Shown one piece after another: positions 28,873 through 52,593 of a stretch of DNA of 64,000 bases. Source of the stretch: Verrucomicrobiaceae bacterium (lineage in GTDB: Bacteria > Verrucomicrobiota > Verrucomicrobiia > Verrucomicrobiales > Verrucomicrobiaceae). The position numbers and the translations under genes are program-made. Position 1 is the stretch's first letter. Every line of letters starts with the position of its first letter. The DNA lies in NCBI GenBank assembly GCA_019694165.1, contig JAIBCL010000002.1, positions 1 through 64,000 of the forward strand, in the 5' to 3' direction. The notes under the pieces are model-generated. The model made no database searches, was not told where the DNA came from, and saw only the letters and a list, made by a program, of their open reading frames with translations.

Positions 28873-30435
28873 ATGAAGAAACATCGCATGGACTGTGACC
28901 CGTTGCCGCTGGACCGCCGATTGAGGCAGGAGATTCTTTTTGCGCGTGAGCGTGTGTATCGCTTCGGGCAAGCGACGCCGATGGAGCGACTCGTTTTGCC
29001 GGGAAATGAGCCGGGGCCGGAGATCTGGGTGAAGCGCGAGGACCTTTCGCCGATCAAGAGCTACAAATGGCGCGGTGCGTGCAATCGCATGGCGCAGCTC
29101 ACGCCGGAGCAGCGCGAGCGCGGCGTGGTGACGGCCTCGGCGGGCAATCATGCGCAAGGCGTGGCTCTCGCGGCGAAAACGCTCGGTATTCAGGCGCGCA
29201 TTCACATGCCGCGCTCAACGCCGAAGGTGAAACAAAACGCCGTGCGGCATCATGGCGGCGATTTTGTGCAGATCGTGCTCACGGGTGACAGTTACGACGA
29301 GGCGGTGCTCGCGGCTCGCGAACACGAAAAGGCCAGCGGAGCCGTTTATGTGCATGCTTACGACGATCTCGCCGTGATGGCTGGTCAGGGCACGCTGGCA
29401 GATGAGATTGTGCTTTCAGGTCACGGGCCGTTCGACGCGGCCTTTTTGCAAATCGGCGGCGGAGGCATGGCTTCGGCCACGGCGGACTGGCTCAAAACCT
29501 ACTGGCCGAGCATCGAAATCATCGGCGTGGAAGGCGTGGGCCAAGCGTCAATGAAGGCAGCCATCGAAAAAGGCCAACCGGTCGAGTTGCACGACCTCGA
29601 CATCTTTTGCGATGGCACCGCCGTGCGAAAAGCGGGAGCCCTGCCCTTTGAAATCTGCCGCACGATGCTCAATCGCATCGCCACGGTCACGAACGCGGAG
29701 GTCAGCGCGGCCATCCGCGTGCTTTGGGAGACCTTGCGCTGCATTTCCGAGCCCAGCGGCGCGATGGGGCTCGCTGCGTTGCTGAAGGAGCGTGCGGCGC
29801 TCGCGGGCAAGAAGGTGCTCATCGTCATCACCGGCGCGAACGTCGACTTTTTGCAGCTCGGTCTCATCGCGCAAAGCGAAGGCGCGGCCAGCACGGTGTC
29901 CCGCACGCTGCGCATCAACATCCCCGAGCGACCCGGCGCGATGCTGTCGCTGCTCGACTCGTGTTTCGAGGGCCTGAACATCGCCGACTTCCAATACGGC
30001 CTGCATCATCCCGACGAAGCCTGGCCCGTCTTCACCGTCACCGCCGAAAGCGCCGCGAAACTCGCCGAACTGCCCGCACGGCTCGATGCGGGCGGTTTCC
30101 AATGGCAGGACCTCAGCGGCGCGGTCGATGTGGCCTTCCGCGCCATCCCGCTGCGCGGCGACCTGCTCACGCATCCGCTTTTCCTGCGTCTCGATTTCTA
30201 CGAACGCCCCGGTGCTCTGCACGACTTCCTCTCCCGCCTCATCCGCGACCGCGCCAGCCTCTGCTACTTCAACTACCGCCAGTCCGGCGAACGCGTCGGC
30301 CGTGCGCTCATCGGCCTCACATTCGAGCAAGCCACTGCACGCGATGCCTTCCTCGCCGATCTCCCCGAGCACGGCGAGGGTTATCGCTCGTGCAAGCCGG
30401 TGGATGAGCCAACGACCGCCCGCTTGATCGGATGA
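28873..30435 (+). CDS. ilvA: Threonine dehydratase, biosynthetic type (IlvA)
   Basis: 520 residues from ATG 28873. The frame opens at 28789 with other candidate starts (28828, 28840), but MDCDPLPL onward fits the usual N-terminal distance to the PLP lysine. That lysine lies in KSYKWRGACNRM (Lys about 65). SAGNHAQGVA and QIGGGGMASA (PLP phosphate-binding glycine loop) follow. The C-terminal 170 residues hold two ACT-like regulatory subdomains (TLRINIPERPGAMLSLLD and LFLRLDFYERPGALHDFL), as in isoleucine-inhibited IlvA. It converts threonine to 2-oxobutanoate plus ammonia, the first step to isoleucine. It is separated by 90 bp from the radical SAM gene. Confidence 0.93.
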   Translation: MKKHRMDCDPLPLDRRLRQEILFARERVYRFGQATPMERLVLPGNEPGPEIWVKREDLSPIKSYKWRGACNRMAQLTPEQRERGVVTASAGNHAQGVALAAKTLGIQARIHMPRSTPKVKQNAVRHHGGDFVQIVLTGDSYDEAVLAAREHEKASGAVYVHAYDDLAVMAGQGTLADEIVLSGHGPFDAAFLQIGGGGMASATADWLKTYWPSIEIIGVEGVGQASMKAAIEKGQPVELHDLDIFCDGTAVRKAGALPFEICRTMLNRIATVTNAEVSAAIRVLWETLRCISEPSGAMGLAALLKERAALAGKKVLIVITGANVDFLQLGLIAQSEGAASTVSRTLRINIPERPGAMLSLLDSCFEGLNIADFQYGLHHPDEAWPVFTVTAESAAKLAELPARLDAGGFQWQDLSGAVDVAFRAIPLRGDLLTHPLFLRLDFYERPGALHDFLSRLIRDRASLCYFNYRQSGERVGRALIGLTFEQATARDAFLADLPEHGEGYRSCKPVDEPTTARLIG

Positions 30436-30837
30436 AACTGCCGACCATAAAGATGCTGCCAATCTGCATGCTCGTCGCTTGACTGGCTGGCACCGCGCCA
30501 GCGAAGCTGAGCTTCCCGACCGCCGCTCACACGGGCTGCCGGTAGATCTCGGAACCATGCCTCATGGACTTGAAGAAGTGCATGACCTTCGAGTGACGGT
30601 TCGATGTCTCGGGGCCGTCGGCGCTGCTTGTTGCAAAAGCCCGACAGCAACCGGCACATCTAGACTGTCCTGCGTTTGAAGTTCCGACTTGGTGACGCCG
30701 ACATCCACACGTTCCGTGCTGCCTCGACACACTCGCCTGCCCACACATGCGGCCCCGGTTTGATTCTTGTTCGTGCTTTGGCTTAGATGCCGGTTTAGCA
30801 AGACTGCAGTCATTCTTCCTGCCTCTTGCGCCCTAAC
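30436..30837. other. Intergenic region before the sulfatase/hydrolase run
   Basis: About 400 bp with no convincing gene on either strand. It separates the housekeeping ilvA gene from the start of the exported-protein run at 30838, so the promoter of that run is expected in it. I could not place a convincing -35/-10 pair, and no terminator hairpin with a T-run is seen behind ilvA. Confidence 0.5.
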
Positions 30838-32268
30838 ATGGAAACGACGCATCACCGCCAGCACTTGACCAACATCAACGCGATCACCGCACATATCACC
30901 TCGCTGCTGCTCGCATCACTGTTGGCGCTGCACGCCACCGCAGCTCCGAAGCCAAACATCGTCTTCATCTACGTGGACAATCTCGGCTACGGCGATCTTG
31001 GCTGCTACGGAAACACTGGCATCAAGACGCCGCGCATTGATCAGCTCGCGAAGGAAGGTGTGCGCTGCACAGATTTTTATGTGGTGGCCTCCACTTGCAC
31101 CGTCTCGCGTGGAGCGGTGCTGACGGGACGATATCCGATGCGCAATGGACTCACGCATCAACTCGGCTCCGAGGAGAACTGGCATGGCGTGGGGCTGCCG
31201 CATCGCGAACGCATCATGCCGCAGTATTTGAAGGAGGCGGGTTATGGCACAGCCTGCTTTGGCAAATGGAACATCGGCTTTGCGCCCGGCAGCCGACCCA
31301 CCGAGCGCGGGTTCGATGAGTTTTTCGGCTTCCGCTCCGGCAACATCAACTACTTCACGCACACCTACCACGGCGAATACGACATGTTCAAAGGCGTCGA
31401 GCCGCATCGCGTCGCAGGCTACAGTGGCGAGATCTTTGCGGATGCGACCTGTGATTACATCAAGCGTCAGGCGAAGGGCGGGAAGCCGTTCTTTGTCTAT
31501 CTGCCGCTCAATGCGCCCCACTACGTCAGCAGCATCAACATGAAGGCTGGCGAGAAGCCGCAGTGGCAGGCACCGGACAGCGCGTTCGCTGCCTACGGCT
31601 GGTCACCGGGCGAGAGCGATGAAAAGCGCCGCTACTTCGCCGTGCTCACCGCGATGGATGAAAACGTGGGGCGTGTGCTCGACACGCTGGATGCCAGCGG
31701 CATGCGCCAGAACACACTTGTGGCCTTCATCTCCGACATGGGTCCCATTCTGCGGCCCACGCACGGTCTTGGTGTGGCGAGCGCCGGCATCTATCGGAAT
31801 GGCGCTCCCACCCTGTATGAAGGCGGCATTCGTGTGCCGGCCATCTTCCGCTGGCCGGGCAAGATTCCCGCGGGCAGCGTGAACCGCGCGATGCTCAGCC
31901 ATCTCGATCTGCTGCCTGCTTTTCTCGATGCCGCAGGTCTGCCACTGCCGAAAGATCGCGTGCTTGATGGTCGCAATTGCCTCCCTGCTCTCTTGGGTGA
32001 ATCGCCATCACCGCATGAACGCATCGTGTTTCAGCTAGGCGACGCGCTCGCGCAGCGCGAAGGATCCCTCAAGCTCATCCGGCCCAAAGCCAAGGCGCCT
32101 TGGGAACTCTACGATCTGGCGAACGATCCCGGTGAATCCAAAAACCTCGCCGCTGAACGCCCGGCGGATGTTGCTCGACTCACCGCCGCTCTCACGCGAT
32201 GGCAGACTGAGGTGAAACAGGACGCGAGTGAGGCCGTGATTTACAAGCCCAGCCCAAAGAAGCCATGA
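30838..32268 (+). CDS. Sulfatase-family protein with altered active site (possible pseudoenzyme)
   Basis: 476 residues from ATG 30838 with signal peptide (ITSLLLASLLALHATA). The overall S1 sulfatase fold is complete (LGYGDLGCYGN, TPRIDQLAKEGVRCTDFY, GRYPMRNGLT, YEGGIRVPAIFRWPGKIPAG). However, four active-site positions differ from the family rule. The metal-binding Asp-Asp is Asp47-Asn48. The formylglycine motif C-x-P/A-x-R is CTVSR (Cys about 87). GKWH is GKWN (about 142-145). SDNG is SDMG (about 299-302). All four bear on metal or sulfate binding, so hydrolytic activity is doubtful; the Cys itself remains. It is the first gene of the run; its TGA overlaps the next ATG. Confidence 0.85.
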   Translation: METTHHRQHLTNINAITAHITSLLLASLLALHATAAPKPNIVFIYVDNLGYGDLGCYGNTGIKTPRIDQLAKEGVRCTDFYVVASTCTVSRGAVLTGRYPMRNGLTHQLGSEENWHGVGLPHRERIMPQYLKEAGYGTACFGKWNIGFAPGSRPTERGFDEFFGFRSGNINYFTHTYHGEYDMFKGVEPHRVAGYSGEIFADATCDYIKRQAKGGKPFFVYLPLNAPHYVSSINMKAGEKPQWQAPDSAFAAYGWSPGESDEKRRYFAVLTAMDENVGRVLDTLDASGMRQNTLVAFISDMGPILRPTHGLGVASAGIYRNGAPTLYEGGIRVPAIFRWPGKIPAGSVNRAMLSHLDLLPAFLDAAGLPLPKDRVLDGRNCLPALLGESPSPHERIVFQLGDALAQREGSLKLIRPKAKAPWELYDLANDPGESKNLAAERPADVARLTAALTRWQTEVKQDASEAVIYKPSPKKP

Positions 32269-34379
32269 AACGACCTCTTGCCCTTTTCACCACGCTTTTG
32301 CTCCCAGCGCTCACCGCGTCGAACGCCCGCGATGCCTTCCAGACACCCGGCAATGGCGAGAACCTCGGTGTGTGGCGCATCACGAATGAGCCGGAGATGA
32401 GGCATTGGGCCAATTACCACAACACGCGCTGCTTCAGCCCTGACGGCCGCTATCTCTGCTATGCACGCGATGCTGAGAACAAGCTGCATGCGGAGGTGTT
32501 TCTTTACGATGCGCACAAGGATCAGACCCGGCGCGTGGATGCCGGGGCGCTGCCGCGCTGGGCGCATGGGCACAACTGGCTCTTCTACCGTCAGCTTCGT
32601 CGTGATGAACGCGATGCGCCCACGTCCGACATCCTCTGGCTCGACGTGGACTCTGGTGAGAGACGCGTGCTGGCCAGTTTGCCTGGAGAAATCGAACTCG
32701 GCGAACCGGACGCCGATGACCAGTGGCTCCACGGCGGCACGCTCACGCGCTCGAAGGACAAGGATGCCAACGTGAAGAAGGAACGTTCTGCGCTGCGCAT
32801 TCGCATCGCGGACAAAAGCGAGGTTCAGCCGCTGCCTGGCGTGCGTGGTTATCAATTCATGCCGAATCCGCGGCATCCGGTCTTTTTCACGCGCTGGAAG
32901 GGCGACCGCAGCGATTTCACCTCGTCGCGCCTCTGGTATGATCTAGATGGAACGAAAGAGCGCATCGGTATTCCCATGCTGCAAAATGCGCACACGTCCT
33001 GGCTCGGTGATGGCGAGTATCACTTGATGGGCAACGGTCTCGTGCGCGGACGGCGCTGGAATGAGCCCTTCCCGAGCGATCTGCACATCCTCGCTGCCGT
33101 GCCGGTGGGCGATGTCAGTCCATGTGGCGACAGCGGCCGCTACGCCACGGGTGATCACAACATCGCCGACCTCCGCTCAGGCGATGGATGGACGTTTCTT
33201 CATCCACTCTCGCAGATCTGCTTTCCGGCGGTGGCAGGCGATGCCTCCACCATTTACGATGCCGACCCGAAGGGCAGCCCCGATGGCACAAAGGTCGCCT
33301 TGGTGACGAACTACGATCTCAAGGAGGCTCCGTTCACCTTAGTCACCAAAGACCTCGCCGATGGCGCGGATGAGTTGCAGGTGGAAAGCACCGCACGCTT
33401 CCCCGACAGCGGAGAATTGGTGATTCGGGGCGAAATCATCGCCTACCAGCGCAAGACTGCGCAAAGCTTCGCCGGCCTTGCTCGCAAGCAGCATGGCACC
33501 TCGCAAAGCCCCGTGCGCAGCGGTGCCGATGTGACGTCATTTGCTGCGCGCCTGCTCACAGACGAGCAGTGGCAGCGCCTCGGTGAAAAGGCATCCGACG
33601 CCATGCAAAACGGTGTCGGCAACGCCGGTCCCATCCTGCTGCGTCAGCGGCAGACGCAGGTCCATGTCGCCATCGTGCGTCTGCCGGACGCGCCGCATCT
33701 GCGCCTCGTGCAGGACAAAGCCGAACTAATCCCCGCCGAAGAACATCGCGAGACCTTCGGCTATCATCTGCTGCGCGATGGCAAGCGCATCACCACTGAG
33801 CCGCTGCGACCCGGCGCTCGTCACGAACTCGCCGAACCCGGCGATTATCAGGCACTCGCCGTCGAATGGAGCGGACTCGAAAGCAAGCCGTCGCCCGTTG
33901 TGAAAATCACGCGTGCCACGACGCTCACCGCGCTGGCCGACAAGCCCGCGGACTTCTCCTGGACGAGCGAGCACAAGCTCGCGAACGGTCGTGAAATCAT
34001 CCACCTGCATGACGGCGTGATTCAGCGTGAGCAGCACGAGCGTGGCGTGCTCGTGAAACACGAGGACCTGAACGCCCAAGGCAAAGCCATCCGCGAACTG
34101 ACCTATCTCGATGGCAAGCTCGCGCGGCGGCAATACACGAACCGCGATGGCGTGCTGATGAGCCGCGAGTTGTTCGACGCCGACGGCTTCATCGCCGAAA
34201 CCATCCTTTTCGACCGTCGCAGCGCACCCGCAGCCACGCCGAAAGAAATCGACCACTGGTGGTTCCAGCGCGGCATGCCGGTAAAGCAAATCAAAGAAGG
34301 CAAACTGTTCACCCGCCAAGGTGATCATTGGGTGAACCAGGCCGCTGGTTCGTCAGCGAAAAAGAAAGGCAAGCCATGA
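32265..34379 (+). CDS. Exported beta-propeller protein of unknown function
   Basis: 704 residues, coupled to the preceding sulfatase by an ATGA overlap. Signal peptide MKRPLALFTTLLLPALTASNA. Residues about 45-350 show WD40/TolB-like repeats (FSPDGRYLCYARD, LHAEVFLYDAHKD, DILWLDVDSGERRVLASL), as in oligogalacturonate-lyase and TolB propellers. Residues about 353-423 form a separate small domain (ELQVESTARFPDSGELVIRG, IIAYQRKTAQSFAGL) that resembles the beta-rich module often seen in phage tail and virion proteins. A fibronectin-like stretch and a C-terminal part rich in paired strands (TYLDGKLARRQYTNRDGVLM, MORN-like) follow, ending in a Lys-rich tail. I do not assign an activity. Confidence 0.8.
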   Translation: MKRPLALFTTLLLPALTASNARDAFQTPGNGENLGVWRITNEPEMRHWANYHNTRCFSPDGRYLCYARDAENKLHAEVFLYDAHKDQTRRVDAGALPRWAHGHNWLFYRQLRRDERDAPTSDILWLDVDSGERRVLASLPGEIELGEPDADDQWLHGGTLTRSKDKDANVKKERSALRIRIADKSEVQPLPGVRGYQFMPNPRHPVFFTRWKGDRSDFTSSRLWYDLDGTKERIGIPMLQNAHTSWLGDGEYHLMGNGLVRGRRWNEPFPSDLHILAAVPVGDVSPCGDSGRYATGDHNIADLRSGDGWTFLHPLSQICFPAVAGDASTIYDADPKGSPDGTKVALVTNYDLKEAPFTLVTKDLADGADELQVESTARFPDSGELVIRGEIIAYQRKTAQSFAGLARKQHGTSQSPVRSGADVTSFAARLLTDEQWQRLGEKASDAMQNGVGNAGPILLRQRQTQVHVAIVRLPDAPHLRLVQDKAELIPAEEHRETFGYHLLRDGKRITTEPLRPGARHELAEPGDYQALAVEWSGLESKPSPVVKITRATTLTALADKPADFSWTSEHKLANGREIIHLHDGVIQREQHERGVLVKHEDLNAQGKAIRELTYLDGKLARRQYTNRDGVLMSRELFDADGFIAETILFDRRSAPAATPKEIDHWWFQRGMPVKQIKEGKLFTRQGDHWVNQAAGSSAKKKGKP

Positions 34380-34388
34380 CGCCTCTGA

Positions 34389-34499
34389 TTTGCCAACGGC
34401 GCCGCATGGCCCCACCCCGGCTGGATCGGCCTCCGCCAGATGGGCCACACCGTCCGCTGCGACTACGACGACGTGAGGATTTACCGCCTAACGCCGTGA
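34389..34499 (+). pseudogene. Remnant C-terminus of a concanavalin-like (DUF1961/DUF1080-type) protein
   Basis: A 36-codon frame after an in-frame TGA reads FANGAAWPHPGWIGLRQMGH, then TVRCDYDDVRIYRLTP and a TGA. The pattern G-W-I-G-L-R-Q-M ... Y-D-D-V-R-I-Y-R-L is the typical C-terminal strand signature of DUF1961/DUF1080-type lectin-fold proteins. An ATG overlapping the previous stop (ATGA at 34376-34379) is in another frame. Read together, the start codon of a coupled gene and its last 36 codons survive and the middle is deleted with a frameshift. The family assignment is by pattern memory only. Confidence 0.55.
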
Positions 34500-34596
34500 T
34501 ACACTTCGTAAGCCCCGCTGGCGACACCCCAGGAGAACGGCAAACAGGACGAACTATTCTCGAACATGATAGGGCATTGCTTTTGGTCGCGTTTTG

Positions 34597-34622
34597 GCAG
34601 TGGTCCGACCTCTGACCACTGC
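34597..34622. promoter_or_regulatory. Perfect 9-bp palindrome upstream of the FadR-type regulator gene (candidate operator)
   Basis: GCAGTGGTC (34597-34605) and GACCACTGC (34614-34622) are exact reverse complements with an 8-bp spacer. TGGTC/GACCA half-sites are what FadR-type GntR regulators bind. It lies about 155 bp upstream of the regulator start codon. No T-run follows, so an operator is preferred over a terminator. Confidence 0.45.
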
Positions 34623-34777
34623 GCTTCATGCCCTTGTTCAAGCATCTTCTGGCCATCATAGACTGGGCCCTTCCGCCGTCGGTTGAACCGAAGTCTGTTG
34701 TTGGTCGGAGTGATGAACTATCAGGAACCCGCAGCGAGCAGTGATCCCCTCGAAAACATCTTCAACTGAACCTTTCC

Positions 34778-35494
34778 ATGAACCTCGTCTCACTCGAACG
34801 CCCTGCTTCACTTGTCGAAACCGTCTGCCAGCAGCTTGCGAAGCTGATTCGTGGCAAGCACTCGGAGGATGAAGATGATCGCTGGTTGCCTGGCGAACGC
34901 TCGCTCGCGGAGAAGCTCGGCGTGAGCCGCAGCGTGGTGCGCGAGGCCACAAAACGCCTGGAGCAGCAAGGCATGCTGGAGATTCAGCATGGCAATGGCA
35001 TCAAGATTGTGGACCGGCTGCATCGCCCGCTGAATGATTCGCTCACGCTACTGATCCCGGACATGGCGGATCGTCTTCAGCAGCTCAATGAGACGCGCCT
35101 TTCCATCGAGCCCGATGCGGCGGCCATGGCGGCGGAACGCGCCACCAAGGAGCACATCCGCACGCTGCGCCGCATTCAAACGCAGTTGGAGAATGCACCA
35201 GACAACGCCGCAGCCATCGAGGCTGACATCGCCGCGCACCACGCCATTGCTGATGCGAGTGGGAACCGGATTTACCGGCTCATTCTCGACTCGCTCGCTG
35301 AACTGGGCGTCACCAGTCGTCTGCGCACCATCGGGCGCATCGGCAAAGCGACCGCCATCGAGCACCACGAGGCGATCTTGAGCGCTATCGAGCGCCGCGA
35401 TCCCGAGGCAGCACGCGCTGCCATGCGCCGCCACATCCTCGCCGCCGGTGAGGACATGGATTTGCCCGCGCTGAAAACCAAGAAGGCGAAATGA
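34778..35494 (+). CDS. GntR-family transcriptional regulator, FadR/FCD type
   Basis: 238 residues. The N-terminal winged helix shows the GntR signature LPGERSLAEKLGVSRSVVREATKRLEQQGMLE (about 37-68). The C-terminal FCD ligand-binding domain is all-helical with metal-binding candidates in EADIAAHHAIADASGN and EHHEAILSAIERRDPEAARAAMRRHI. Regulators of this type repress catabolic operons until a sugar acid or other small acid binds. The PSD1 gene starts 1 bp after its stop, so it is the first gene of that operon and probably controls it. A candidate operator palindrome lies upstream at 34597-34622. Confidence 0.9.
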   Translation: MNLVSLERPASLVETVCQQLAKLIRGKHSEDEDDRWLPGERSLAEKLGVSRSVVREATKRLEQQGMLEIQHGNGIKIVDRLHRPLNDSLTLLIPDMADRLQQLNETRLSIEPDAAAMAAERATKEHIRTLRRIQTQLENAPDNAAAIEADIAAHHAIADASGNRIYRLILDSLAELGVTSRLRTIGRIGKATAIEHHEAILSAIERRDPEAARAAMRRHILAAGEDMDLPALKTKKAK

Positions 35495-44064: not shown

Positions 44065-45432
44065 ATGAAGTCTCGGACGCCATTTCTCTGCCTCTCTACT
44101 TTTTGCCTTCTGGCATCCCTGCAAGCCACCGAAGTGCGCACCGATACTTGGACGGAGAAATGGCCTAACAAGAGCGGACAGCTTCAAACCATCAGCGTCA
44201 CTGCCGAGGTGTGGACGGAGTTTTTTCAGGCGGATCTCGATGCGGATGGCCAGTTGCATATTCCGGCGCGTGAGAAGCCCTATTACCTTGATGGGCCGTT
44301 GGTGATGAAATCCGGCCAGAAGCTCACGGCGGACGCGAAGGCCGAAATTCGGCTCAAACTGGGCACCAGCACCTGCATGGTGCGCAATGAGCGTGTCACC
44401 ACCTTGAACACGAAGCCCGTGCCACGCGATCAACCGCTCGACACCGGCATCAGCATTGAGGGCGGCATCTGGACCACGCTGGCGGTCACGCGTGCAGAGT
44501 CGAATGGCAATGCGCGCGGTGCTTCCTCGAAGCAAAACGCGGCGTTTGGCACCCACGGCGTCATCCTGCTGCAAAACGTGCGAGGTGTGTCGGTGAAGAA
44601 CGTCACCATCCGCCAGAGCCGTCCTTTCGGCGTGCATCTGGCGAACGCGCATGAGTTCACTGTCGAGAACATCACCCTCGAAAATCACGGGCGCGATGGC
44701 GTGCATGTGAACGGTCCCGCGAGCGATGGCCTCATCCGTGGCGTGCGCGGCGATCCGCATGATGACAACGTCGCGCTCAACGCCTGGGAATGGAAAAACT
44801 ACGCGCCCAGCTACGGCCCCATCGAGCGCATCATCATCGAGGACGTTACCGGAGCGCCCAAAGGTGTGCCTGCGGCCAATTCCATCCGCATCCTGCCCGG
44901 CGTGAAACGCTTCGACGATGGCACCACGCTCGACTGTCCCATCAGCGACATCACGCTGCGCCGCATCACCGACATCCGCGAGTTCAAACTCTACGACCAG
45001 CCAAACCTCGAACTCGGTCGCGACAACGATTTCAGCCTTGGCGTCGGCACGCTGAAACACATCCGCTTTGAAGACCTCACCTTCCATCACCCCGGCAAGA
45101 TCGAAGTCCACGCCAACACCGACGGCCTCACGATACAAAACGTGCGCGTGAATCATTCCATTGCCCCCGATTGGCACCTCCTCGCCATCGGCCCGAAGTC
45201 CGCGACCTATACGGGCGCGCCCGGCAGCGATTCCTCGCGCTGGACGGAAATCTTCTCCCCCGCCCTCGACTGCACCGTCCGCAACGTCAGCATCACCGGC
45301 GTCCGCTCTCGCGATTCGCAGACGGATTTGCCCATCGAGCAGGTCGTGAAGGTCATCGAACTCAAACCCAACCCTGATTATCCCAAGACCACGCCGAAGG
45401 GCGGCACCGGGAAAGGCATCTGGATTCGCTGA
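44065..45432 (+). CDS. Secreted right-handed beta-helix protein, GH28-like
   Basis: 455 residues; signal peptide MKSRTPFLCLSTFCLLASLQA. The body consists of parallel beta-helix rungs (VRGVSVKNVTIRQSRPFGVHL, EFTVENITLENHGRDGVHV). The polygalacturonase-type acidic pair is possibly present in DPHDDNVALNAWEW (Asp about 233 and 234), the place of the GDD motif of family GH28. It could be a pectin- or glycosaminoglycan-directed glycosidase or lyase. It follows the CocE-type gene by 21 bp and is followed by the cyanophycinase-like gene 2 bp after its stop. Confidence 0.78.
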   Translation: MKSRTPFLCLSTFCLLASLQATEVRTDTWTEKWPNKSGQLQTISVTAEVWTEFFQADLDADGQLHIPAREKPYYLDGPLVMKSGQKLTADAKAEIRLKLGTSTCMVRNERVTTLNTKPVPRDQPLDTGISIEGGIWTTLAVTRAESNGNARGASSKQNAAFGTHGVILLQNVRGVSVKNVTIRQSRPFGVHLANAHEFTVENITLENHGRDGVHVNGPASDGLIRGVRGDPHDDNVALNAWEWKNYAPSYGPIERIIIEDVTGAPKGVPAANSIRILPGVKRFDDGTTLDCPISDITLRRITDIREFKLYDQPNLELGRDNDFSLGVGTLKHIRFEDLTFHHPGKIEVHANTDGLTIQNVRVNHSIAPDWHLLAIGPKSATYTGAPGSDSSRWTEIFSPALDCTVRNVSITGVRSRDSQTDLPIEQVVKVIELKPNPDYPKTTPKGGTGKGIWIR

Positions 45433-47127: not shown

Positions 47128-49242
47128 ATGAAATCCAAACTCCTCGTTGCTGCCGTTCTGATCACTTCATTCGCCGCGATGCATGCTGACGAACCCGCCA
47201 CGAACTCCATCGGCATGAAGCTCGTGCGCATCGAGGCGGGCACGTTCATGATGGGGCAGGACGGGCCGCCGATGGAGGATTACCTGCGGCAGAAGCGGTT
47301 TGGAGAGATGCACAAGGATTTCGACCGGATCGATTTCGATGAGAAGCCGGCGCACAAAGTCACGATCACGCAGCCGTTCCTGATGGGCATCACCGAGGTC
47401 ACGGTGGCGCAGTTTCGGCAGTTCGATCCTGGGTTCAAAAGGAACGATCCGAAGTTGAAGCCGGCCGATGATGATGCGGCGAGCGGTGTGACTTGGGAGC
47501 GGGCGGTGGCGTTTTGCGAATGGCTGTCGAAGAAGGAGGGCACGACGTATCGCCTGCCGACCGAAGCGGAGTGGGAGTATGCCTGCCGCGCGGGCACGAC
47601 GACGCTTTTCCATACGGGCGACACGTTGCCGGATGCGCACCAGAAGTGGTTCGGCGACGACAACTATCGTGCGGTGTATTTCCCGCCGGGACCGATGCCG
47701 CGTGAGTATGACTGGAGAAATGCCGGCAAAGCGTCCGCGAAGCTCAAGCAAGGGCAGATCATTGGTCTGGATCATCCCGAGGAGGAGTCGAAAGCGGGTG
47801 GCGCAGGCGCGCTGCGGGTGGCGCGGAAGACGCCAAATGCCTGGGGTCTCCACGACATGCATGGCAATGTGGCGGAGTGGTGCAGCGATTGGTATGGGCC
47901 GTATGAGAGCGGTGCTCAGACCGACCCGTTGGGCCGTGCGGATGGTGACTGTCGCGTGTTTCGCGGCGGATTTCATTCGTCGATGATCCGCTTCCTGCGC
48001 TCCGCGAATCGCGGCTCGTGGGTGACGAACTCCGCGAGCGAACGCATCGGCTTCCGCGTCGTGCAGGGTGAGGCGCTGAAGGGAAAGCTGCTGCCGCTCG
48101 CAACGCCGCCGCTGAATGCGCAGAACGTGAGTCAGACGGTGCCGACGCTGCAGCCGCCTTCTCCACGCGAGCCGTTCTTTGAAGGCCCGAAGCCTTTCGT
48201 GCGGATCGCGGAGGGCGCAGTCGGCCCCGTGTTCATCAGCCAGAATCATAGCCCATCCATCACCGAATGCCCGAATGGCGATTTGCTCGCAGTCTGGTTC
48301 TCCACGCTGGGCGAAACCGATCTCACCACCGCGAACGCCGCCTCGCGACTGCGCCTCGGCGCACAGGAATGGGAACCGGCTTCGGCGTTCTGGGATGCTC
48401 AAGACGTCAACGATCACGCGCCGAAGGTTTGGTGGGACGGCGACAAGACGCTCTACCACATCGTCGAGGGCCGACAGCACGGTGACATCGTGATCCGCCG
48501 CTCCACCGACAACGGCGTCACCTGGTCGAAGGCCGAAGTGATGCGGGCACACGGCGAGTCGGCCAGCAATCCCATCCGCACGAAGGAAGGCGTGATCGCG
48601 ATCCCGTTCGACTTTTCCGGATTCTCGATCAGTCGCAACAACGGCAAGACCTGGAGCGAGACCGGGCGGGATCGTCGCGGATCGGATGACATTCAACCCG
48701 GAGGCAAAGGCCCATTCATCGCGGGCATTCATTCACCCATCGTCGAACTCACCGACGGACGCATCATGGCCTTCGGTCGTCTCTCACCCGAGGAGCTCGC
48801 GCAGAAGCGTCTCGACCTCAAGATGCCCGTCAGCTACTCCAGCGACCTCGGCGAGACGTGGCAGTGGGCCATCAGCGAGTTTCCCGTCGTCAGCAACACG
48901 CAGCGCCCAGCCATGCTGCGGCTCAAAGAAGGCCCCATCGTGCTTTGCTCCTTCACCGATCAGGCCCGCACGCCGAAAGACCAGCGCCAAGGCCTCACCT
49001 TCAAGTCCACCGACGGCGACTACACCGGCACCGGCCTCTACACCGCCGTGAGCTACGACGAAGGCAAAACCTGGCCCGACCGCCGCCTCATCGCCCCTGA
49101 AGGCAAAACCACCGCCGACATCAACGGCTACCTCGCCATCACCCAAACCCGCGATGGCCGCGTCCAGCTCATCACCAGCAAGGATCACTACGTCTTCAAC
49201 CTCGCGTGGATCAAACAACTGCCGACCAAACCGAAGAAGTGA
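47128..49242 (+). CDS. FGE/SUMF1-like domain fused to sialidase-type propeller
   Basis: 704 residues, signal peptide MKSKLLVAAVLITSFAAMHA. Residues about 25-315 form a SUMF1/FGE-sulfatase domain (NSIGMKLVRIEAGTFMMGQ, YRLPTEAEWEYACRAGT, WGLHDMHGNVAEWCSDWYG, RVFRGGFHSSMIRFLRSANRG). The two active-site Cys of formylglycine-generating enzymes should lie just after RGG; here that stretch has no Cys, so it probably cannot make formylglycine. Residues about 340-700 are a six-bladed sialidase/BNR propeller with Asp-box motifs (IVIRRSTDNGVTWSKAEV, YSSDLGETWQWAI, VSYDEGKTWPDRRLI). Export and context suggest carbohydrate processing or binding. Its 3' end (49114-49242) is duplicated at 52606-52735. Confidence 0.87.
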   Translation: MKSKLLVAAVLITSFAAMHADEPATNSIGMKLVRIEAGTFMMGQDGPPMEDYLRQKRFGEMHKDFDRIDFDEKPAHKVTITQPFLMGITEVTVAQFRQFDPGFKRNDPKLKPADDDAASGVTWERAVAFCEWLSKKEGTTYRLPTEAEWEYACRAGTTTLFHTGDTLPDAHQKWFGDDNYRAVYFPPGPMPREYDWRNAGKASAKLKQGQIIGLDHPEEESKAGGAGALRVARKTPNAWGLHDMHGNVAEWCSDWYGPYESGAQTDPLGRADGDCRVFRGGFHSSMIRFLRSANRGSWVTNSASERIGFRVVQGEALKGKLLPLATPPLNAQNVSQTVPTLQPPSPREPFFEGPKPFVRIAEGAVGPVFISQNHSPSITECPNGDLLAVWFSTLGETDLTTANAASRLRLGAQEWEPASAFWDAQDVNDHAPKVWWDGDKTLYHIVEGRQHGDIVIRRSTDNGVTWSKAEVMRAHGESASNPIRTKEGVIAIPFDFSGFSISRNNGKTWSETGRDRRGSDDIQPGGKGPFIAGIHSPIVELTDGRIMAFGRLSPEELAQKRLDLKMPVSYSSDLGETWQWAISEFPVVSNTQRPAMLRLKEGPIVLCSFTDQARTPKDQRQGLTFKSTDGDYTGTGLYTAVSYDEGKTWPDRRLIAPEGKTTADINGYLAITQTRDGRVQLITSKDHYVFNLAWIKQLPTKPKK
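49114..49242 (+). repeat. Left copy of duplicated sialidase 3' end
   Basis: The last 129 bases of the sialidase fusion gene, starting GCCGACATCAACGGCTACC. It has about ten mismatches over the first 100 bases to the right copy at 52606-52735, with an indel near the stop codon. The two copies bracket the AAA/subtilase module. Confidence 0.8.
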
Positions 49243-50223: not shown

Positions 50224-52593
50224 ATGCCCCCTCCCGTCGCTCGGCCACAAAACTACTTCCTCAATGAGACCCACGAGTTGTCGGTGGAGTCAAAAGAGGG
50301 TGGCGGGCCGCCAGCGCAGTATCCTGACATTGATTGGGCGAAGAAGTCCAAAACACTGCATCAGTCGTTGCGGAAAGTGGCCCAGCGAGCGGCCCAATCT
50401 CGTGACCCACTGAGCAGTCGAAAGTATTACATCCTCGCTGACGCGGCTCAGGGTCTCGAAAAGTTCTCCAAGGCGCAGGATGCGGTGAATCAGCGCAGAC
50501 CCGCTCCGGTGATTTTCAGCGGCGAGCAATCGAGGATCTTCGAGAGGGCGGGACTCGATCTGATCGAGGTCCATCCCAGCGGCGCGGCCACCGTTCATGC
50601 GTCTGCTGAACGCATGAAGCAACTTCTTGCCCGCACGGAGCAATTGAGCCAATCGGGTGTGCGACAGCAATCGAGGTTCGTGGCTTTTGAGGACTTTGAC
50701 TGGCTGGAAGGCAGGCTCAAATATGACCAGGAGTGGCTGGAGGAATTGGGGCGAAACTCAGGTGAGGGATTGATTCAGCTTCAACCGCTCATCACTGAAG
50801 TAGAGGCTGATTTGGTCTTTCGTGCGATGACGCAAATGTTGCAGGGCAGCAAGCTAGACCGCCTCCGAGGCAAAGGCCGGAGCTACATGGGGCGCTACTT
50901 TCTGCGTGCCTCACTGACTCCAGAGACGATTCAACGAATCGCCGATGAGTTTACATCGGTGCAGTCCATTCATGCTCCCATCGTTGCTTTGGCCTCAGCA
51001 CTGCCTCCCGAGATTGGTGGAGCAGGGCTAGCTACAAAGGCCCCTCCCGTTGTCGTCTCTCGCCTGCCCTGCGTGGGCATTTTGGACACAGCCGTCCCGA
51101 CTGACCACGAATGGCTGGCTCCCTATCGTCGAGGAGGCCCAATGCTGGGCCTGAACTGTGCCAATGATCCCACGGACTCTCATGGTTCAGTGGTGGCTAC
51201 GAGAGTCGTCTATGGCGATGTGGATTTAAGTTCTGGTGCCGATCTTCCTGCTCCCTCTTGCCGTTTTCTGGAGATTCGCCTCGGCAATGGACAGCCTGGT
51301 CGGATTCGCACCGAAAGTGTCGTGACTGCTTTGGCTGCCGCACTCATCGCAGCGCCTGACGTCCGGGTGTTCAGCATCAGCTTTGATTCGGATGCTCGAT
51401 TGGACGACATGCAGACTACCAAGCGAAAAGAGACGCTGAAGCTCATCGAGGAGATAGATAACTTCGCCTTCGATCAGGACGTGTTGATCGTCATTGCAGC
51501 AGGCAATTCACAGGGTTGACTCAATCCATCGAAACCCTACCCCAATCACTACGATGATCCGGCTTGGGAGTTGTTGAGCTATCCTCGTGCCTTCAATGCA
51601 CTTACATGGGGTGGCATTGCTCGCAAGATTGCTGCTGGCGGCATAGCGTCCGAGCTGGATGCGGATGCTCCGAGTCCGTTCACGCGCATTGGCCCAGGTT
51701 TTGCCAAGAGTCCGAAGCCCGATTTATGCGAGTCTGCGGGCGATGCAGGAAAGGATTATAGACCCATTGAGGGAGGTGGAGTTTGGGGACTCGATCACCT
51801 GTCTTTTGCCAAAGAGACAAACGGCACTTCTTTCGCAGCTCCACTGCTAGCTCGAGAAGCAGCGTTTGTGTTGCAGGCGCTGCAAGCTCAGTGCTCGGGC
51901 GATACGAGGCCATTCGCTTGCACCGCCAAAGCCGTCCTTGCTATCTCGGCCTTTGATGTCGCGGGTGGATTGCAGCCTTCATTGCATAAACTGGCAAAGC
52001 GAACGCTTGGCTATGGGCTTGCTCGGAGTGAGCAGTTCACAACCGCCTCTCGGCAGCGAGCCCGTTTTGTGTGGCAGGGCATCATCGAACACGAGAGCGA
52101 TATTGTTCGAGTTCAGCTTCCAGTGCCGCTGGCTTGGCTTTCGAGTGCGGCTTCCCCTTTGATGCGCATGTGCGTCTCCTGGGATACGCCGGTCAATGCG
52201 GCTGCCGAACTCGAATGGAGTTGCCGTGACGTGGAGGTGAAACTTTTCAGCGATCCGGAAGCTTCCAAAGGTGTCAAAGGATCGAATCGTTCTGCCGCAG
52301 GTTATCCGCTGTTTACCGAGAGCTGGAATCTCGCACTGGTTGGAGAAGCGGATCTCAAAAGCGACCTATGGGTCGTGGAGTTGAGTTACAAACAGCAAGC
52401 GGCTTACCCAGCAGGTCGGATTCCTTCCGTGTCACAACGTGTTGCTTTCGTGGCCGAACTCTGGGATGACGCCGAAGAACCCGTTGATCCTCACAGCTAT
52501 GTGCAGCGACTCCCGATAGCTTCCTCGCTCAGCAGACTTAGCAACACCTCGGTCTGGCTAGGCCAACCAACAGCGATCGTATCGGAGTTTTGA
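50224..52593 (+). pseudogene. Subtilisin-like (S8) serine protease interrupted by an in-frame TGA
   Basis: One frame of 790 codons, broken only by TGA at 51517-51519 (codon 432). Active-site residues are all present and in frame: Asp about 288 in VGILDTAVP, His about 320 in DSHGSVVATRVV, the oxyanion-hole Asn in VIAAGNSQG just before the stop, and Ser about 536 in NGTSFAAPLL after it. The stop thus separates the Asp/His from the Ser half. The N-terminal about 280 residues are an extra helical domain and the C-terminus a beta-rich domain, as in phage-defence subtilases. No signal peptide. No Shine-Dalgarno is seen for a second start (the downstream part opens at a TTG). It may be inactivated, read through, or a sequencing error. 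Confidence 0.82.

Follow-up and report, generated by a model that had tools for sequence, protein, structure and literature searches.

The sulfatase-like open reading frame (ORF) described here lies in the window, that is, the whole stretch of 64,000 nucleotides that was analysed. We consider it likely that its product represents an ancient and discrete subfamily with the formylglycine-sulfatase fold, in which the active site was rebuilt under selection and which most probably still acts as a hydrolase. An altered substrate or chemistry seems to fit the pattern of kept and replaced residues better than a pseudoenzyme.

Sulfatase-Like Protein and Its Predicted Fold

The ORF is found on the forward strand, starting with an ATG at 30838 and ending with a stop at 32266-32268, and it encodes 476 aa. 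The N-terminus is hydrophobic and reads as a putative signal peptide, which would lead the protein to secretion. The Pfam Sulfatase profile (PF00884) matched residues 43-371 of a 480-aa form of the protein, with an E-value of 4.2e-59 and 200.8 bits against a cut-off of 25, and both the family cut-off and the fold place the protein in the sulfatase fold family (Pfam PF00884, SulfAtlas S1). The features are collected in Table 1.

A structure model, which the sequence-only reading had proposed as a check, was built with AlphaFold2 from a 64-row alignment. The mean pLDDT was 95.2 and the pTM 0.94, and the fold was that of an S1 sulfatase (Z about 50 against solved S1 enzymes). The best solved structural matches were S1_19 carrageenan sulfatases (Foldseek E 4.0e-39; Z 50.1, rmsd 2.6, 408 residues aligned); ARSB scored nearly as high (Z 49.1), as did ARSA (Z 47). 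Likeness of fold to solved sulfatases carries no information on activity. The model was less certain in the loop preceding A323, with block means of 71 and 86, and this was counted against the explanation we prefer.

Table 1: Features of the sulfatase-like gene, its product, and the ORF that follows it.
Feature	Position	Strand	Basis
Sulfatase-fold protein, predicted to be secreted, 476 aa, altered active site	30838..32268	+	ORF, Pfam, hydrophobic N-terminus, AlphaFold2 model
D47-N48, metal-site pair; Asp-Asp is Asp-Asn (ARSA D29/D30)	30976..30981	+	Clade alignment, Table 2 of PMC4014121
C87-T-V-S-R91, nucleophile motif; Val89 in the Pro/Ala place, Cys and Arg kept	31096..31110	+	Clade alignment
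G-K143-W-N145; Lys123 kept, His125 is Asn	31261..31272	+	Clade alignment
H228 (ARSA H229), kept	31519..31521	+	Clade alignment
D300-M301; Asp281 kept, Asn282 is Met	31735..31740	+	Clade alignment
A323, replacing the active-site Lys (ARSA K302)	31804..31806	+	HMMER alignments to solved sulfatases, clade alignment
704-aa ORF, 4-base overlap with the stop of the sulfatase-like ORF, no family	32265..34379	+	ORF list, Pfam scan

Active-Site Residues

Residues were mapped to ARSA and PAS numbering by means of Table 2 of PMC4014121 and the text of PMC5066984. The four altered motifs pointed out by the sequence-only reading are all present (VDN, CTVSR, GKWN, and SDMG). We found a fifth change that it had overlooked, in which the lysine five residues ahead of EGG (ARSA K302, PAS K375) is replaced by A323. 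According to PMC5066984, conservation among the 4058 S1 sequences of SulfAtlas is 76% at Asp14, 87% at Pro53, 81% at the His, 61% at Asn318, and 96% at Lys375. The four positions flagged before are thus among the more variable ones of S1, and the overlooked lysine, being so much more conserved, is the strongest departure. The earlier argument that only active-site motifs had been hit is to be qualified in view of the lower conservation of these positions (61-87%). In the SulfAtlas consensus, Asn is among the residues above 1% at the His position, while Val in the Pro place of the motif read by the formylglycine-generating enzyme (FGE) falls below 1% (PMC5066984), and modification of the cysteine in the window protein is for this reason uncertain.

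All the S1 positions that PMC5066984 gives as conserved at 94% or more (Asp13, the nucleophile Cys/Ser, Arg55, Lys113, His211, and Asp317) are retained in the window protein. The nucleophile Cys and the Arg of the FGE motif are C87 and R91, both present in 89/89 members of the clade described below, and V89 departs from the SulfAtlas pattern, whose third place is Pro or Ala. Of the S1 metal ligands (PAS Asp13, Asp14, Asp317, and Asn318) the first and the third are kept, the second is Asn, and the fourth is Met. The catalytic His115 and Lys375 of S1 (PAS numbering) are found neither in the window protein nor in any of the 89 members. The residue set of the phosphonate monoester hydrolases (PMHs) was not found either, as judged by K143, N145, M301, and A323 against Table 2 of PMC4014121.

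A Discrete Clade with a Conserved Set of Changes

A seeded scan of genome contigs found 224 relatives, and the clade was sampled from the best 80 of the 224 by similarity, so that its far edge lies beyond the sample. These 80 came from Verrucomicrobiota (37), Planctomycetota (22), Acidobacteriota (16), Hydrogenedentota (2), and Omnitrophota (1), with 2 unassigned; clade members span at least five phyla. Matches to the clade model spanning at least 350 residues were made non-redundant, and 89 clade members and 60 other sulfatases from the fetched loci were aligned.

Eight positions are invariant in 89/89 members (ARSA numbering): Asp29, Asn30, Cys69, Arg73, Lys123, Asn125, His229, and Asp281. 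Lys302 is absent from every member, its place being taken by Gly (53), Arg (19), Ala (16), or Ile (1). The position of Pro71 holds P in 45, V in 36, A in 7, and T in 1, and that of Asn282 holds N in 73 and M in 16; all 16 Met282 members carry Ala at 302. It had been proposed to look in homologues for conservation of the four changes together. Asn48 and Asn145 are indeed kept in 89/89, but the V of CTVSR occurs in 36/89 and SDMG in 16/89; the four changes are not supported as one linked set.

The seeds of the locus search contained GKWN or DN, and Lys302 was in no seed. Both exact seeds are present in 49 of the 89 members, the GKWN seed only in 32, and the DN seed only in 8. Considering that Asn30 is kept in 32/32 of the former single-seed group and Asn125 in 8/8 of the latter, and that Lys302 was unseeded, seeding is not the cause of the joint conservation.

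A quick LG+G4 tree was calculated from 138 rows, leaving out 11 of the 60 other sulfatases with scores below 160; long branches were flagged among the non-clade rows. The clade occupies one side of a branch with an SH-aLRT of 100, and it is discrete and monophyletic. At the eight invariant positions no change within the clade need be assumed; the minimum is 8 changes at Pro71, 2 at Asn282, and 5 at Lys302. In a motif-free profile search of 57 genomes, 4 yielded full-length members, which scored 668-745 bits, and a further one yielded a truncated member at 478 bits (5/57 genomes with a member), all else scoring at most 410 bits. In 7 genomes chosen via clade loci, each holding a member, the gap was 677-746 against at most 417 bits. 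The exact GKWN-type DNA pattern was present in 4/387 genomes of the phylum. Outside the motifs, Q108, N169, Y172, Y177, D182, and W243 are clade-specific and invariant or nearly so, and from the alignment they look like a substrate pocket. A search of the open-access literature found no paper describing the clade. Neither was a solved or characterised enzyme with this residue combination found, which was counted against the preferred explanation.

Two members lie close together in each of five loci (L021, L027, L046, L068, and L075), so the clade has been duplicated locally several times. At L028:4829-8020 a member shares a single ORF of 1064 aa, by fusion, with a GDSL/SGNH esterase domain and with another region that has no family assignment; L002 is seemingly the same record. 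The solved relatives of this GDSL domain include yxiM (E 1.2e-17) and rhamnogalacturonan acetylesterase (E 2.4e-9). A family search with the N-terminal extensions of the members at L025 and L038 found none, and the extensions are probably open frame upstream of the start.

Paralogue and Purifying Selection

A second copy of the gene is present in the same genome (G000:C3:141852-143204). It is 87% identical and has all five changes. Over 438 codons, dN was 0.064, dS 0.497, and dN/dS 0.13, so that the pair is under purifying selection. When the surroundings of the two copies were compared by blastn, the single match was the gene itself.

Recent decay or a sequencing artefact in one gene would explain why several catalytic positions are off consensus together, but the same changes occur in this constrained paralogue and in relatives from many assemblies, and we give that explanation practically no weight. 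The view that the changes are not random decay is thereby borne out, the core changes being kept clade-wide. The sequence-only reading had named absence of the changes from close relatives as the sign of recent decay; Asn48, Asn145, and the lack of Lys at 323 are common to 89/89 relatives.

Coupling of Asp30 and Lys302

In the genome of the window, 134 sulfatase matches were listed and regions were taken for all places except G000:C13:17-646; 122 of 129 ORF hits were aligned, and 119 entered the covariation test. Letters at all four flagged positions were available for 120 of the 122, and all four were altered in three. These are the window protein, its paralogue, and an outlier whose alignment is poor and in which the Cys is missing as well. 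Among the 119 sulfatases, Asn at the Asp30 position went with loss of Lys302 in 7/7, against 3/112 of those lacking Asn (p 2e-9 in Fisher's test, with no correction for kinship). The alignment is uncertain at the His125 column (GKxxH types) and, for one Asp row (L139), at Lys302. The two rows with Gln and Ala at Asp30 both retain the lysine.

On a tree built without the Asp30 and Lys302 columns, 6 changes are required to account for the Asn state. Of 200 pairings, most had agreement in all five independent pairs taken from supported branches, and a few had four with one tie; the median p of the sign test was 0.0625, a test in which five pairs cannot reach 0.05. The change from Asp30 to Asn together with loss of Lys302 took place in about five independent lineages of this genome. 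The 60 non-clade sulfatases from the fetched loci show the same tendency: 3/3 Asn rows are without Lys302, against 1/56 Asp rows, with one row gapped. These three rows are probably no new origins, since they resemble types also present in the window's genome. A structural reason for the coupling is offered by sulfamidase, in which an Arg at the Lys302 position is salt-bridged to the Asp30 position (PMC4014121).

Five further Asn30 proteins of the same genome (G000) were seen at L140:749-2206, L156:750-2198, L155:3-1988, L125:13948-15669, and L178:274-1803. They belong to separate lineages and are all without Lys302, and four also lack the His229 equivalent; the class is therefore not uniform, four of seven having lost this His. 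Among the solved relatives listed for other Asp-to-Asn sulfatases of this genome (two alignments per search) there was no Asp-Asn structure; in the case of L155, both listed alignments cover its NHL-like C-terminal part.

Gene Neighbourhood

The gene had been described as heading a run. It is true that the next ORF, with its ATG at 32265, overlaps it and is probably co-translated, but a search of 37 related genomes gave no match to this partner outside its own genome. It does not accompany the clade as a conserved gene, and little on function can therefore be read from the run. A family search with the 704-aa ORF found none at E 0.001 and, at 0.05, only weak matches below cut-off. No sigma-70-like site was found in a promoter and terminator scan of 30400-34800.

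Among 81 sources (member-bearing loci, the window, and the paralogue) there was no common partner gene, and the unconserved neighbourhoods were counted against the preferred explanation. Nearest neighbours of 120-900 aa numbered 148 before the strand filter, and the 85 on the same strand were scanned. Sulfatases were commonest (9/85), with LRR proteins (6) and DUF1501 (4) also present; the LRR neighbours are in keeping with a cluster of 8 loci that includes near-identical ones from Bryobacterales.

Elsewhere in the window there are further sulfatases and, at 44065-45432, a beta-helix ORF with a weak GH28 match (E 0.0018, below cut-off). At 47128-49242, in the same run as several sulfatases, an FGE-like (sulfatase-modifying factor) domain is combined with BNR repeats. 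A subtilase (S8) at 50224-52593 is seemingly split into two same-frame ORFs by a stop at 51517-51519, with an AAA ATPase ORF directly ahead of it. The whole genome has 32 PF03781 (FGE-family) matches, many in very long frames, and many of these domains may serve other roles.

Proposed Mechanism and Alternative Explanations

In the S1 mechanism as given in PMC5066984, a formylglycine hydrate is the nucleophile, Asp317 is the base, and His115 releases the covalent intermediate; the leaving group is protonated by a His-Lys pair (PMC5870055). The clade, its conservation, the predicted fold, and the selection are shown by the data; for secretion, formylglycine formation, activity, and substrate we can only infer. 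In the mechanism that we propose, Cys87 would be converted to formylglycine and would then attack the ester. As usual, Asp300 would act as base, Lys143 would bind the anion, Arg91 would stabilise the nucleophile, and His228 would protonate the leaving group, while the metal would be held by Asp47 and Asp300 with a neutral Asn48. With neither His125 nor Lys302 present, the covalent intermediate would have to be released, and the leaving group protonated, by a different route. Considering that these steps must differ, the substrate would not be the usual sulfate ester of a glycan, or the kinetics would be different. The substrate is probably a carbohydrate ester (sulfate, phosphate, or phosphodiester), for which the esterase fusion, the beta-helix ORF of the window, and the sulfatase neighbours are weak hints.

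An active hydrolase is favoured because the equivalents of Asp29, Cys69, Arg73, Lys123, His229, and Asp281 are invariant in 89/89 and because known enzymes work with such changes: Gln takes the place of Asp30 in active choline sulfatase and PMH, where it touches the lysine (PMC5870055), and Arg that of Lys302 in active sulfamidase (PMC4014121). The FGE-family genes of the genome and the GDSL fusion were also counted in favour. Against it, we counted that no active precedent for Gly or Ala at Lys302 or Met at Asn282 was met with in the literature consulted. Conservation of the active site could also come from ligand binding without turnover.

The last point leads to the suggestion, already made by the sequence-only reading, of a pseudoenzyme. 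Such a protein would be secreted and would serve in binding or as a scaffold, its old active-site pocket still recognising a sulfated or phosphorylated glycan without turning it over. The clade-wide loss of His125 and Lys302 agrees with it, as do the change of one metal ligand in all members and of a second in the window's subclade, and the Val, non-consensus for FGE, in the motif of 36/89. The SulfAtlas authors suspected inactivity in other members, from Planctomycetes and Lentisphaerae, that lack Arg55 (PMC5066984). In the clade, however, the nucleophile is neither lost nor unconstrained, and the six residues named above for the active hydrolase do not vary in any member; moreover, His125 is replaced in many other sulfatases of the same genome and in PMHs, and Asp14 is only 76% conserved in S1 (PMC5066984). 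The pseudoenzyme is weakened by these data and we regard it as unlikely. The other suggestion of that reading, a different substrate, is compatible with the conserved core changes and the nucleophile set kept throughout.

We also hold, as a tentative possibility, that the clade left sulfate and became a formylglycine-dependent phosphoesterase or phosphonate hydrolase, cleaving a phosphate ester or diester in parallel to the PMHs. In SpAS1, every obtainable substitution of His103 cut sulfatase activity more than tenfold; Asn is one of five that switched the preferred substrate, and it also belongs to the substitutions by which phosphodi- or phosphomonoesterase activity rose at least tenfold (PMC5488252). 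According to PMC4014121, PMHs carry Thr/Asp at the His125 position and Gln at that of Asp30, and in the GKWD group, which lies nearest to the clade in the tree, the former position is Asp, as in most PMHs. The PMH pattern is nevertheless not reproduced: at Lys123, where PMHs have Tyr, the clade retains Lys, and it has lost the Lys302 that PMHs retain. The nearest structures are glycan sulfatases. This possibility is a special case of the active hydrolase that we prefer, and the confidence given to the two overlaps.

Going further, we put forward with some doubt that the clade may be a second non-sulfatase formylglycine enzyme derived from a glycan sulfatase ancestor, in which joint loss of Asp30 and Lys302, giving Asn30, and the change of His125 to Asn led to action on phosphate-type esters of polysaccharides. 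More generally, Asp30-to-Asn with loss of Lys302 would define an undescribed S1 class of several origins.

The use of sulfated glycans in Verrucomicrobiota and Planctomycetota is inferred from sulfatase counts. Members of this clade match the Pfam sulfatase profile without several canonical catalytic residues, and should not be counted as sulfatases unassayed. The clade is also a natural sequence set with P/V/A in the FGE motif, N/M at the metal, and G/A/R at the lysine, which lets the roles of these residues and the SpAS1-type switch from sulfate to phosphate be probed directly.

Comparison with Known Systems

The S1_19 carrageenan sulfatases (PsS1_19B, 6psm/6prm; Ps i-CgsB, 6b0j/6bia; ZgCgsA, 9hh2/9hh3) have the same fold, length, and motif order as the window protein and are its best solved matches in sequence (215.6 bits) and also in structure, where the Z values run from 50.1 to 48.4 and ARSB, at 49.1, falls within this span. 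In the alignments, Asp-Asp, a Pro in the Cys motif, GKWH, D-N-G, and the Lys before EGG are seen in PsS1_19B and ZgCgsA, except that PsS1_19B is gapped at the Lys; the window protein has Asn, Val, Asn, Met, and Ala.

The PMHs (RlPMH and BcPMH), as described in the sources cited above, resemble the clade in belonging to the formylglycine family, in the replacement of His125 (Thr/Asp), and in a carboxamide at Asp30 (Gln13). They differ by Tyr at Lys123, His at Asn282, and a retained Lys302, where the clade has Lys, Asn/Met, and no Lys. Sulfamidase (SGSH) is, according to PMC4014121, active with a residue other than Lys at the Lys302 position (Arg282), as in the 19/89 members with Arg; unlike the clade, it keeps His125 and the pair Asp31-Asp32, with Asp32 salt-bridged to Arg282.

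The GKWD sulfatases (L096-L107 and others, from the same bacterial family and order) branch near the clade among the rows of the tree. They keep NAPH and have Asp in place of His125 but, in contrast to the clade, retain Asp-Asp, CTPSR, and Lys302. This group is the nearest to the clade in score, and the replacement of His125 is thus not unique to the clade.
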